Assembly: GCA_019359075.1 (NCBI GenBank)
Contig: JAHHIB010000071.1
Span: 1 to 45,076, forward strand
DNA: 45,076 nt
Direction of reading: 5' to 3'
From: Kalymmatonema hyalinum WJT4-NPBG1
Lineage (GTDB): Bacteria; Cyanobacteriota; Cyanobacteriia; Cyanobacteriales; Nostocaceae
Shown: one piece after another, positions 6,122-10,531 of the stretch
Position numbering within the stretch: position 1 is the first letter of the stretch
Layout: every line of letters starts with the position of its first letter
Program-made: the position numbers and the translations under genes
Notes under the pieces: generated by a model
The model's input: the letters and a program-made list of their open reading frames with translations, nothing else
What the model was told of the DNA's origin: nothing
Database searches by the model: none

Positions 6122-7715
<1,594 letters not shown>

Positions 7716-7874: not shown

Positions 7875-8539
7875 GATTTCTAATTGCCAATGCTGAATAA
7901 AATTTTACTTAATTGCCCCACCTGAATGAGCCTTGAGAGGTAAAGCCGATTCAAGTAGGGCAATCACTTTTGGTAGTATCTCTGGGTTAACCACGCTCTT
8001 GTTTACAAACTGCCTTTGGCTAACTTGTGCTTCCTCTAGCTGTTACCGTGGGTACTGTTCCAGTATTTTTGAACAAGCAGCGCATACAATACCATAAGTT
8101 TTATGGATGCGTTTGTAGCAGCTATATGCGCCTCTATACCCTGTACGTACAAGTCAAGGATTTGAGTATTCTTTGACTCTATTAAAGACTTAATTACTAC
8201 AAACAATAGTGAGGTTTTTAGATAGTACTTTAAAAATTTATTGTACTCTCTGATAAACTCACTATACTCACGAGAAACGTGAGCAATATCTTGACAGCTA
8301 CAACACATAAGCCATTTAGGGAACAAAGATAGCTATAAAGTAACTACCTTAGTTCCCTTAAAGCATCTTTCGTTGGAAATACTACAATATAATAACTTTT
8401 CTGTAAAAATAGCTACATCTGAAGTTATCAGGCATCTAGCTATAGCAAGCACCAGAAAAAAGGTATTTGATTAAAGACATTATATATAGGAAGCAACGGG
8501 CGATCGCCCTCTGTCATAGACGATCGCCCTCACCAACAT
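7875..8539. other. Intergenic region, one weak open frame
   Basis: AT-rich sequence between ahcY and the DAHP synthase gene. A 96-codon frame on the minus strand (8036-8326) has a Cys pair near its start and one hydrophobic stretch, but it resembles no family I know and shows no clear ribosome binding site; I do not call it a gene. Two HIP1-containing GGGCGATCGCCC-like motifs at about 8498-8530 lie just past the DAHP synthase stop. Confidence 0.45.
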
Positions 8540-9412
8540 TTAAGCCGCACAACAAATAGGGGCAGGTTTGAAACCCGCCCCCATGTCTTGCGATATACTC
8601 CGTCCAACAGATGCTGCTACAAGCCTTAAGCTATCAACTAAATTCACCATATCTTCCAAAGACAGCGCTTGACGTGCATCAGAAACAGATTTTTCTGGTT
8701 CTGGGTGACACTCAATAATTAACCCATCTGCGCCACAAGCAACAGCCGCCTTTGCAACAGGTGCCACGAGTTCCCGCTTGCCTACTGCATGCGAAGGGTC
8801 TACAATCACAGGCAAGTGAGTGATCAGCTTAAGAGCCGCCACTGCTCCTAAATCCAGGACATTACGGGTGTAATTATCAAAGCTGCGGATACCTCGTTCG
8901 CACAGCACCACATCAGGATTTCCGTGGCTTAAAATATATTCGGCTGCCATCACGAATTCTTCAATTGTCGCCGATAAGCCGCGTTTGAGGAGTATCGGCT
9001 TACCTGCTTGTCCTAAAGCTTTGAGCAAATCGAAGTTTTGCATATTGCGGCTACCCACTTGCAGCATATCAACATGAGCGGCGACGACTTCAATTTGCGA
9101 AATTGACATAACTTCGGTGATGACTGGGATATTATAGTGCGATCGCACCCCTGCCAAAATTTCCAGTCCTTCTTCTCCCATTCCCTGGAAGGCGTAGGGA
9201 GAGGTGCGGGGTTTGTAGACACCGCCACGCAAAGCTTGTACGGGTGCGGCGGATAAGTTTTGGGCGACTGTTTCCATTTGTTCGGCGCTTTCAACAGCGC
9301 AAGGTCCGCCAATAATCACCAGTTCTGTACCACCAAAGGCGACTTTTTCGGAGAGGTTGACGATTGTCTGATGGTGAGGATGAGATTTTGCGGCTAGTTT
9401 AGCATTATTCAT
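8540..9412 (-). CDS. aroF: 3-deoxy-7-phosphoheptulonate synthase, type I-beta
   Basis: 290 aa. It catalyses the first shikimate-pathway step, condensing phosphoenolpyruvate and erythrose 4-phosphate to DAHP. Family motifs are IGGPCAVES (about 34-42), GGVYKPRTSPYAFQG (about 63-77), QVGSRNMQNF, LLKRG, CERGIRSF, VDPSHAVGKR and DGLIIECHPEP, the last carrying metal and phosphate ligands. There is no N-terminal ACT or C-terminal chorismate mutase domain. The C-terminal tail is short and Cys-rich (ICCAA). The start at 9412 is set by AGGAGA (9421-9426), 8 nt upstream. The gene lies downstream of two aromatic leader-peptide attenuators, which implies control by charged tRNA-Phe, -Tyr and -Trp in addition to whatever feedback inhibition the enzyme has. 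Confidence 0.95.
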   Translation of the reverse strand: MNNAKLAAKSHPHHQTIVNLSEKVAFGGTELVIIGGPCAVESAEQMETVAQNLSAAPVQALRGGVYKPRTSPYAFQGMGEEGLEILAGVRSHYNIPVITEVMSISQIEVVAAHVDMLQVGSRNMQNFDLLKALGQAGKPILLKRGLSATIEEFVMAAEYILSHGNPDVVLCERGIRSFDNYTRNVLDLGAVAALKLITHLPVIVDPSHAVGKRELVAPVAKAAVACGADGLIIECHPEPEKSVSDARQALSLEDMVNLVDSLRLVAASVGRSISQDMGAGFKPAPICCAA

Positions 9413-9453
9413 GGTTCGATTCTCCTAAAAAACAAAAATGAGAGGTTGACACT

Positions 9454-9488
9454 AAAAAAGCCCAGAACCTTTGTCAGTTCCGGGCTTT
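9454..9488 (-). terminator. Attenuator terminator 2, upstream of aroF
   Basis: On the minus strand a 12-bp stem, AAAGCCCGGAAC with GTTCTGGGCTTT (one G-U pair), encloses an 8-nt loop and runs into a T-tract at 9454-9459. It lies about 25 nt after the stop of leader peptide 2 and about 40 nt before the aroF start. Its 5' arm can instead pair with AGTTCCGGG inside the end of leader 2, which would disrupt the stem. Confidence 0.85.
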
Positions 9489-9524
9489 AACGATTCATCG
9501 ACATGACGCGACTTACCCGGAACT
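9476..9524 (-). promoter_or_regulatory. Antiterminator pairing of attenuator 2
   Basis: AGTTCCGGG on the minus strand (9516-9524, the last codons of leader 2) is perfectly complementary to CCCGGAACT (9476-9484), the centre of the 5' arm of terminator 2. A ribosome stalled on the aromatic codons upstream leaves this 9-bp pairing free to form and so prevents the terminator. A ribosome reaching the stop codon at 9513 covers it. The complementarity is seen directly; the mechanism is inferred from Trp-type attenuators. Confidence 0.75.
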
Positions 9525-9575
9525 TGTTCTGGGGTAAAAGTAAAAGCCATAAAACCAGCTACTGAAATAAGTCAT
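9513..9575 (-). CDS. Aromatic leader peptide 2 (20 aa) of aroF
   Basis: Twenty codons from ATG 9575 to TAA 9513; an in-frame GTG lies immediately upstream at 9578. Nine residues are aromatic: Y3, F4, W7, F8, Y9, F11, Y12, F13, Y14. AAGGAG at 9591-9596 is a ribosome binding site about 12-15 nt upstream, slightly long. Such composition is typical of leader peptides whose translation senses charged aromatic tRNAs, as in pheA and trp attenuators. The codons for residues 18-20 form the antiterminator arm. The peptide itself probably has no function after synthesis. Confidence 0.85.
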   Translation of the reverse strand: MTYFSSWFYGFYFYPRTSSG

Positions 9576-9596
9576 CACGATGAAATTTCACTCCTT

Positions 9597-9630
9597 AAAA
9601 AACAAAAACCGCAGAGTTCACTCTGCGGTT
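9597..9630 (-). terminator. Attenuator terminator 1, upstream of leader 2
   Basis: On the minus strand a perfect 11-bp stem, AACCGCAGAGT with ACTCTGCGGTT and a 2-nt loop (9607-9630), is followed by a T-rich tract with one G (9597-9606). It lies between leader peptides 1 and 2. The first four bases of its 5' arm (AACC) also belong to the alternative 11-bp hairpin with the end of leader 1, so the two structures exclude each other in part. Confidence 0.85.
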
Positions 9631-9676
9631 CACCGGGCGGCTTCCATAAGGAAACTTGACTCACTCCCGGTGAACC
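9627..9676 (-). promoter_or_regulatory. Antiterminator pairing of attenuator 1
   Basis: GGTTCACCGGG (9666-9676, the penultimate codons of leader 1) is perfectly complementary over 11 bp to CCCGGTGAACC (9627-9637). Forming it takes up the base of terminator 1. It begins 5 nt after the last aromatic codon, the right place to be exposed by a ribosome stalled on Tyr or Phe codons and masked by one that reaches the TGA at 9661. Confidence 0.75.
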
Positions 9677-9717
9677 ACCCTAAACCAAAAATAAAAATAG
9701 GAACTGCTGCTGATCAT
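9661..9717 (-). CDS. Aromatic leader peptide 1 (18 aa) of aroF
   Basis: Eighteen codons from ATG 9717 to TGA 9661. A run of six consecutive aromatic residues occupies positions 7-12 (Y, F, Y, F, W, F). No clear Shine-Dalgarno precedes the ATG, which is not unusual in cyanobacteria. The last codons form one arm of the antiterminator of attenuator 1. Composition, position and overlap with the structures together support a leader peptide; expression is not proven. Confidence 0.75.
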   Translation of the reverse strand: MISSSSYFYFWFRVVHRE

Positions 9718-10039
9718 TTGTCAGGCGTTTTGTTGAATAATTTAATTTACACTTATGTTTTCTGACGTTAGCATAGGAAACAAGTCGCGTCAAGACCACC
9801 AGAACTAAAAAAAAAGGGTTAAACTCAGTACAATTCTGGCAATCAAAACTTATTGCTGGCTGGCTATCATCTCATTTACAGAACTTTAAAAATATTTTAT
9901 TTCACAGAGCATGGAGAAAGAATGAATGTATGAATGCTGAATGAGAAATTGGTGTGGACTGCTCATTACATAATTCATAATTCATCATTTTGACCTCACA
10001 ATTGACTGTATTAACACTTGAAGACGACCAAGTATTATT
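9718..10039. other. Probable aroF promoter region and short repeats
   Basis: The first ~60 nt (minus strand) upstream of leader 1 should hold the aroF promoter; it is AT-rich, but I cannot fix -10 and -35 boxes. The rest contains short intergenic repeats such as GAATGAATG and TCATTACATAATTCATAATTC. No gene is seen. Confidence 0.4.
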
Positions 10040-10531
10040 ATGCCCAGTACCAAAGTTTTAACCACATCTTTCAATTATCAAGGAGTTTACCCCTGCCCGG
10101 TCTGTCGTGTGGGTAAGATTAGTCATATGCCACTCATGGAGGCTATGTCTTGTGACTTCTGTCAACAAATTTTTACTGTCAACGTAGAACAACAGCTTCT
10201 TAAAATGCCATCCAGACAACCACCCCTAATTTGGCATTGGAATGGCTTTAATTGGACAGAAGCGCAAATAGAAGGTGTAGAATTTGGTTGGGGCTATGTG
10301 ATAGGAGCAGCTGCTTTTGTACTCCTGCCAACGACTTTAATTGGGATAGTGGCTTATAATTTCCCACCCCATCCAGCAACTCCCCTATCTTGGCTACCAT
10401 ATTTCTGGACGATATTAACTCTGTTGTCGCATCTCACAATTATTGTTTGGCTTTTTATTGAAATTTATCAAATTCCACTTATGGCATACTGGCGAGCTAT
10501 ACAACAGCGTTTTCTAGGTCGGGAAAATTAA
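10040..10531 (+). CDS. Zinc-ribbon protein with two membrane helices
   Basis: 163 aa. Residues 19-42 hold two CxxC pairs (CPVC and CDFC) that should form a zinc ribbon. A W-rich stretch (LIWHWNGFNW) follows, then two hydrophobic segments at about 83-107 and 119-142, likely transmembrane hairpins. It ends with a short basic tail. I do not know a function; similar conserved hypothetical proteins occur in cyanobacteria. It stands alone with no operon partner. Confidence 0.75.
   Translation: MPSTKVLTTSFNYQGVYPCPVCRVGKISHMPLMEAMSCDFCQQIFTVNVEQQLLKMPSRQPPLIWHWNGFNWTEAQIEGVEFGWGYVIGAAAFVLLPTTLIGIVAYNFPPHPATPLSWLPYFWTILTLLSHLTIIVWLFIEIYQIPLMAYWRAIQQRFLGREN

Follow-up and report, generated by a model that had tools for sequence, protein, structure and literature searches.

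Organization of the aroF leader region

The region studied here lies on the minus strand of the window, as we call the whole analysed stretch of 45,076 nt, and leads into aroF, a gene for DAHP synthase. Between a conserved promoter and aroF, this strand holds two short ORFs, two intrinsic terminators and two antiterminator helices (Table 1). Each ORF with its terminator and antiterminator is referred to as a gate, and both gates together as the cassette.

Table 1. Features of the aroF leader region in the order of reading on the minus strand (positions in the window)
Feature	Position	Strand	Description
Promoter	9765..9793	-	TTGACG-N17-TAACGT, extended -10 (TGC before TAACGT)
Leader ORF 1	9661..9717	-	MISSSSYFYFWFRVVHRE and stop codon; six consecutive aromatic codons (YFYFWF)
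Antiterminator 1, 5' arm	9666..9676	-	GGTTCACCGGG, within the last codons of leader 1
Antiterminator 1, 3' arm	9627..9637	-	CCCGGTGAACC; terminator 1 begins with its final 5 bases
Terminator 1	9606..9631	-	GAACCGCAGAG-TGAA-CTCTGCGGTTT, 11 bp, then TTGTTTTTT; T-tract to ~9597
Leader ORF 2	9513..9575	-	MTYFSSWFYGFYFYPRTSSG and stop codon; nine aromatic codons in 20 aa
Antiterminator 2, 5' arm	9516..9524	-	AGTTCCGGG, last codons of leader 2
Antiterminator 2, 3' arm	9476..9484	-	CCCGGAACT; 8 of 9 bases inside the 5' arm of terminator 2
Terminator 2	9457..9488	-	AAAGCCCGGAAC-TGACAAAG-GTTCTGGGCTTT, 12 bp; 3' arm ends TTT, then three more T
aroF	8540..9412	-	catalytic core of a type I-beta DAHP synthase (290 aa); lacks the N-terminal stretch seen in the paralogues

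An earlier note on this DNA had described two tandem short ORFs, one with six consecutive and the other with nine aromatic residues, each followed by an intrinsic terminator with a stem of 11 or 12 bp and a T-tract. Their coordinates agree with ours on rechecking, and the terminators are recognizable in the sequence. The ends of the leaders had further been proposed to be complementary, over 11 and 9 bp, to a segment overlapping the 5' arm of the respective terminator, and all pairs of both helices proved to be perfect. Terminator 1 shares 5 bases at its foot with antiterminator 1, and 8 bases are common to terminator 2 and antiterminator 2. When the leaders were subjected to dinucleotide shuffling, a perfect helix of at least 11 bp with the region of the terminator 5' arm was obtained for leader 1 in 1 of 3000 shuffles, and one of at least 9 bp for leader 2 in 5 of 3000.

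No Shine-Dalgarno-like sequence was found before leader 1. Leader 2 is preceded by an AAGGAG motif whose end lies 15 nt from the ATG. Small hairpins are present in conserved stretches of both antiterminator loops, TTTCC with GGAAG in the first (window 9654-9641, minus strand) and TCAT with ATGA in the second (window 9506-9495, minus strand). They may represent pause or nucleation hairpins.

AroF and its paralogues

AroF matches the family model TIGR01361 with 363.7 bits, over the cut-off, and is comprised of the catalytic core. The match to NF006421 starts only at position 68 of the 338 in the profile, and the alignment with the structure PDB 1rzm (338 aa) starts only at residue 75, while the short enzymes 1vs1 and 1zco are aligned over almost their entire length. 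We take 1rzm to be the Thermotoga enzyme, in which the N-terminal domain is presumably the allosteric one. Five DAHP synthase genes are present in the genome of the window, and the other four encode about 70 additional N-terminal residues compared to AroF. At these four paralogous loci, neither of the covariance models built for the gates (R1 for gate 1 and R2 for gate 2) gave a match at E values up to 1. In AroF, control at the RNA level may replace allostery.

Two of the N-terminally extended genes (L002 and L003, on contig G000:C136) adjoin one another, with their matched parts about 1.1 kb apart. Within aroF, at its 3' end and coincident with the codons for the C-terminal residues GAGFKPAP, a near-perfect REP-like palindrome (GGGGCAGGTTTGAAACCCGCCCC) occupies window positions 8559-8581; it is the only one in the window at up to 3 mismatches.

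Conservation of the cassette upstream of aroF

To compare the region among related genes, upstream sequences were collected from genomes near the window, from the best 80 named loci and from stretches of more distant genomes. Removal of 7 exact duplicates from 127 sequences gave 120 distinct upstream regions, with one relic (L210, see below) left out. Of the named relatives among the matches listed, Scytonema sp. NIES-4073 is nearest at 99% protein identity, followed by Tolypothrix campylonemoides at 98%. Of the 120 regions, the script used for detection listed 112 as having leader 1 and 114 as having leader 2; many of the 112 are close relatives, and the counts do not represent independent events. 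Four regions ending with their contigs (L015, L051, L066, and L078) account for half of the eight regions lacking leader 1 and for four of the six lacking leader 2. The remaining leader 1 cases are two true absences (L034 and L204) and two script misses (L007 and L022), both of them recovered by the covariance model. For leader 2, they are one true absence (L203) and one script miss (L206), also found by the model. Among the strains with both gates are Nostoc punctiforme NIES-2108 (L090) and Fischerella sp. PCC 9431 (L113).

Two regions were set aside for gate 2 in folding and codon counts. The leader 2 reported for L031 was read in a wrong frame; the model gives gate 2 of this region 67 bits, yet a clean ORF is missing. 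In L007, the report was truncated by the 700-nt limit. In L007 and L036 (Tolypothrix campylonemoides), both close relatives of the window, gate 2 is about 600 bases away from aroF, a distance that in L036 includes a run of N.

The promoter is conserved together with the leaders. TTGAC was observed at most 170 nt upstream of leader 1 in all 109 regions with enough sequence, and the complete consensus (TTGACN, a spacer of 17 or 18 nt, and TGNTANNNT) in 107 out of 108. The site at 9793-9765 was missing from the output of a generic promoter scan, because its -10 hexamer is a poor match to TATAAT, and the scan listed no other on the minus strand between this site and aroF. Transcription is predicted to start near 9758. 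The earlier note had regarded a start downstream of 9597 as evidence against the attenuators, and the promoter consensus sits upstream of leader 1.

Distribution among cyanobacteria

We have also addressed the question of how the gates are distributed in the phylum. For this, models R1 and R2 and the AroF protein were searched against 386 sampled cyanobacterial genomes, with cut-offs of E up to 1e-105 for aroF, E < 1e-9 for R1, and E up to 1.5e-5 for R2; the search filters lose some weak matches on samples of this size. An aroF of the type in the window was detected in 38 of the 386 genomes, spanning ten families of the sample (f1, f2, f5, f8, f15, f28, f29, f30, f33, and f37). Both gates accompany it in 36 of the 38, gate 1 being present in 37 (all except G185) and gate 2 also in 37 (all except G159). 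Conversely, R1 matches at E < 1e-9 were obtained in 38 genomes, 37 of them within the aroF set, and all 37 genomes with strong R2 matches belong to this set. Because the gates track aroF through 38 genomes and ten families, the cassette can be regarded as going with the gene.

The only sampled genome outside the 38 with a strong match to a gate is G029, where the match precedes an aroF relic. In this relic (L210, G029:C48:72300-74500), gate 1 and the promoter run straight into a truncated aroF fragment, so that a decayed copy keeps the RNA element. A single gate was found in three genomes, gate 1 in G159 (L203) and gate 2 in G185 (L204) and G057 (L034), indicating that two gates are not indispensable. 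In the genome of the window, the locus described here is the sole strong one for both models. The next best matches have E values of 0.12 for R1 and 2.35 for R2, the latter corresponding to the other strand of the same locus.

Weak matches were treated separately. R2 matched 54 genomes at E up to 0.01, and the 17 of these with E > 0.001 were not counted, as they are likely due to chance; 13 of the 17 belong to a single family, f42. A weak R1 match in G104 (E 0.003) was set aside for the same reason. Around one of these weak matches, in G271 (L219), no piece of aroF was found in 3 kb.

Two further loci have rearranged or decayed genes. In L218 (G034:C1:3950300-3957800), aroF is split into fragments at 27-680 and 6502-6732 on the minus strand, separated by an insert of about 5.8 kb. 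A gene of the phage integrase family (PF00589) adjoins the 5' fragment within the insert, the residues YAFQG are encoded at both edges of the break, and both gates upstream of the split gene have strong scores. The insert resembles the excision elements of heterocystous cyanobacteria. An aroF relative at G094:C1:3292649-3293467 contains one in-frame TGA, and represents either a decayed gene or a sequencing error.

The two gates recognize each other weakly, with best E values of 0.0013 for R1 on gate 2 and 0.0005 for R2 on gate 1. These similarities hint that the gates may be ancient duplicates of each other, and can alternatively be explained by aromatic codons common to both.

Codon conservation in the leader ORFs

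Codons for all three aromatic amino acids are present in 111 of the 112 leaders 1 and in all 111 leaders 2 with a start codon (100 ATG, 8 TTG, and 3 GTG). Leader 2 is the richer in aromatic residues, 947 out of 2329 compared to 735 out of 2016 in leader 1. Compared with the window, the five core codons of leader 1 (525 codons) differ mostly at position 3 (95 differences) and less often at position 2 (43), with only one difference at position 1. The six core codons of leader 2 (624 codons, drawn from 105 of the 111 ORFs) have 83, 44, and 10 differences at positions 3, 2, and 1, respectively, in a tally that excludes a Gly codon and a codon specifying Tyr in the window and Trp in 102 of 104 others. 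If these are included, the values become 201, 154, and 40 in 832 codons and are dominated by Tyr/Trp and Gly/Ser codons. Changes in the aromatic codons are therefore mainly silent or exchange F and Y, which are distinguished by position 2.

Gaps follow the same regularity. In the aromatic coding stretch, they are 3 nt long in 22 of 22 cells (A3) and in 37 of 38 (A4), cells that do not count as independent events since a single insertion in one sequence gives cells in many, while in the loops gap lengths are mixed. Together, these patterns would fit translation of the leader ORFs.

Peptide sequences of the leaders look conserved, which would fit functional small proteins or arrest peptides to which the RNA structures are secondary. 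The conserved C-termini, VVHRE and SSG, are nevertheless encoded where the antiterminator arms lie. In L214 and L216, ORF 1 stops at the edge of the arm and the RNA arm is retained, and the order of F, Y, and W differs among distant species (YFYFYFFW, YYFWFYFW, FFFGFYFW, and YWLFSFFF). Because the order varies, and because the arm outlasts the ORF in these two loci, sensing of codons is favoured, and a function of the peptide itself is considered very improbable.

Codon-like change in conserved codons also argues against a T-box or another riboswitch binding tRNA or a metabolite. Such an element could be thought of wherever a gene of amino acid metabolism is preceded by a terminator and an antiterminator. 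A search of window positions 8400-10100 against Rfam gave five matches at E values up to 5, all of them far below the gathering scores (best E 0.46), and neither a T-box nor an amino acid leader (Trp, Phe, His, Leu, and others) was among them. This explanation is given practically no weight.

Covariation in the stems

Alignments were constructed of the 24 gate 1 and 38 gate 2 sequences that were left once similar ones (ratio of at least 0.88) had been removed, and cells with changes on both sides of a pair were compared with shuffles, which ignore relatedness, and with slid columns, which retain it. In antiterminator 1, 95.5% of cells are paired, and 21 have a two-sided change, compared to 6.7 in shuffles, with none of the 500 as high. 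Sliding by 1-3 columns leaves at most six such cells. One pair occurs in six standard pair types. Counted by pairs, 4 of 11 have a two-sided change, a number which does not exceed shuffles (88 of 500 as high). Little variation is seen at the base of the helix, where GGTTC pairs with GAACC, and GAACC has to answer to two partners since it also forms the foot of terminator 1. The latter is almost invariant, with 7 of its 10 pairs never varying.

In gate 2, the terminator has 23 cells with two-sided change in comparison to 5.9 in shuffles (0 of 500 as high). Antiterminator 2 is paired in 90.9% of cells and has 11 such cells in comparison to 3.2 in shuffles (0 of 500 as high), while neither pairs with two-sided change nor pair types exceed shuffles, of which 198 and 240, respectively, out of 500 were as high. 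In the first, smaller sets, antiterminator 1 covaried, and no covariation of antiterminator 2 above shuffles was detected in set A2. In general, the comparison of aroF relatives suggested in the earlier note disclosed conserved aromatic codons and stems with compensatory changes.

Predicted folding of the gates with a stalled ribosome

Equilibrium folding was calculated with a ribosome covering 12 nt downstream of the codon in the A site, a value close to the ~12 nt downstream of the translated codon quoted in PMC4833913. In gate 1, the median probability of the terminator is 0.94 with the ribosome at the stop codon and 0.14-0.44 with the ribosome stalled 9 to 12 codons before it. It rises to 0.70 at 8 codons, usually the position of Trp, and to 0.95 at 7 codons. 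The window behaves in the same manner, with 0.16-0.49 at the upstream Tyr and Phe codons, 0.70 at the Trp codon and 0.95 at the last Phe. When positions 9678-9606 are folded, the antiterminator leaves terminator 1 only six upper pairs, detached from the T-tract.

Gate 2 responds differently. Its median probability of the terminator is 1.00 at the stop codon and still 0.67-0.97 for ribosomes stalled at codons 7 to 14 before it. In the window, only stalls at codons 7-10 lower it to 0.00-0.28, whereas codons 11 to 14, the four aromatic ones closest to the arm, leave it at 0.76-0.89. The isolated fold of positions 9526-9455 retains terminator 2. A terminator probability more than 0.5 higher at the stop codon than at a stall on the first aromatic codon was obtained for 59 of 112 sequences in gate 1 and 44 of 112 in gate 2. 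The equilibrium model shows no clear switching at gate 2. Since equilibrium favours terminator 2, this gate would need kinetic capture of the antiterminator, and we accepted equilibrium folding as an indication of switching for gate 1 only. The proposal that antiterminator and terminator exclude each other, made for both leaders in the earlier note, agrees clearly with the predicted fold of gate 1 and weakly, at equilibrium, with that of gate 2. Sensing of all three aromatic amino acids, also proposed there, agrees with the F, Y, and W codon content, with the reservation that at gate 1 of the window a stall at Trp relieves termination only in part (0.70 compared to 0.94-0.95).

These results raise the question of whether only gate 1 works as an attenuator, gate 2 being mainly a constitutive or weakly regulated terminator that acts as a brake or ends a short RNA. 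Folding of the median homologue, in which terminator 2 prevails even with the arm free, and the weaker covariation of antiterminator 2 are in accordance with such a role. Leader 2, however, has more aromatic codons than leader 1 and keeps them, its antiterminator is paired in nine tenths of the cells with two-sided changes above shuffles when counted by cells, and genomes G185 and G057 retain gate 2 without gate 1. Taken together, we consider it improbable that gate 2 is a mere terminator.

Proposed mechanism

Based on sequence features, aroF is very probably controlled by two ribosome-mediated transcription attenuators in series, sensing the charging of tRNA-Phe, tRNA-Tyr, and tRNA-Trp. The case for attenuators is built on anatomy and its conservation, on covariation of stems, codon-like change, promoter consensus and co-inheritance with aroF, and the Trp/Phe attenuation layout proposed earlier is supported by the codons, the stems, the promoter and the tracking of aroF by the cassette. 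From these features, we infer translation of the leaders, termination at both sites, the amino acid response and the logic of two gates in series.

RNA polymerase would start near 9758 and transcribe leader 1. If charged aromatic tRNAs are plentiful, the ribosome would reach the stop codon and cover the end of the leader; as this end is the 5' arm of the antiterminator, the terminator would fold and transcription would stop near 9597. If Phe, Tyr, or Trp is short, the ribosome would stall in the aromatic run, and the freed arm would pair with the 5' side of the terminator, allowing the polymerase to continue. Leader 2 would repeat the same decision before aroF, with antiterminator 2 captured during transcription, before the 3' arm of the terminator is made. 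The gene would thus probably be read only when phenylalanine, tyrosine, or tryptophan is short, and two gates in series would be expected to give a steeper response.

A more elaborate form of this mechanism, in which each gate has its own task and the pair takes the place of allostery, is regarded as possible, though rather doubtful. Gate 1 would read mainly Tyr and Phe and gate 2 all three amino acids, AroF would be placed under an AND of two read-throughs, and promoter, gates and enzyme would form one inherited unit across ten families of the sample. In 111 of 112 sequences, leader 1 has its Trp codon among the final nine codons, and 97 of 111 leaders 2 have a Trp codon 12 or more codons ahead of the stop. 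Gate 1 is suggested to read mainly Tyr and Phe because a ribosome stalled at a Trp codon near the arm still covers the part competing with the terminator. Against such a division of work is the weak response of gate 2 at equilibrium in the median homologue.

Besides attenuation, the terminated leader RNAs or their peptides could influence other genes in trans, an activity reported for peTrpL of Sinorhizobium (PMC7298713). Transcripts of about 160 and 300 nt would be expected under aromatic sufficiency, and the leader sequences are conserved; conservation is, however, explained by the cis mechanism, and an additional action in trans is considered quite unlikely.

If attenuation operates as proposed, the cassette represents a conserved and easily tested case in cyanobacteria, placed at the entry of the shikimate pathway. 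It points to a coupling of transcription and translation in cyanobacteria that may be tight enough for attenuation, offers a natural two-gate circuit for one signal class, and is a target for work on shikimate-derived products.

Comparison with known attenuators

In E. coli, trpL and pheL combine a codon run, an alternative antiterminator and an intrinsic terminator before genes making the sensed amino acid (summarized in PMC11802643). The same elements, the codon run, the antiterminator and terminator as alternatives, and a gene making what is sensed, are common to the window, while trpL and pheL are single and specific for one amino acid each. The attenuator on aroF of Corynebacterium glutamicum was reportedly described by Neshat et al. 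2014.

The aroR-aroF region of C. glutamicum has a single attenuator on a DAHP synthase gene (PMC11802643; predicted in PMC4046766). It shares with the cassette ribosome-mediated attenuation before this gene and a leader with aromatic codons, differing in its host, a member of Actinobacteria, in having one attenuator, and in its Phe-Tyr-Phe leader. It is stated to respond to limitation of Phe and not of Tyr, and the enzyme is called inhibited by Tyr and Phe (PMC11802643). A predicted RNA motif before aroF of Shewanella is noted as “Attenuator sensing tyr-tRNA” (PMC2659441), an entry based on an older E. coli study cited there. It likewise connects a DAHP synthase gene with a proposed attenuator for an aromatic tRNA, in this case in Gammaproteobacteria and for a Tyr-sensitive enzyme.

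A tandem arrangement has been described for mgtCBR of Salmonella, where attenuators respond to ATP and proline (PMC3641672). As is proposed for the leaders of the cassette, two translated short ORFs in one leader each control transcription into the coding region. The Salmonella ORFs sense different signals and act additively on a gene outside amino acid biosynthesis, and their stem-loops, unlike those of the aroF gates, do not resemble intrinsic terminators (PMC3641672).

For cyanobacteria, the Discussion of a 2016 paper (PMC4833913) speaks of no reliable data on attenuation. The parts available of PMC8632094 and PMC8079986 contain nothing on cyanobacterial attenuators, and that of a survey of attenuation in Actinobacteria (PMC1262725) no case of DAHP synthase. 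In the open-access literature, covered mainly as titles and beginnings of abstracts and with most subscription journals outside, no cyanobacterial report of the cassette was found. The earlier note had considered the arrangement undescribed both in cyanobacteria and as a tandem. The former agrees with this search, while the latter has to be narrowed in view of the tandem precedent in Salmonella mgtCBR and of the attenuators on DAHP synthase genes, a single one reported in Corynebacterium and one listed for Shewanella. The class of attenuator is a known one, and, as far as the literature searched shows, two gates in series for one signal class, in this phylum and at this step, are new.
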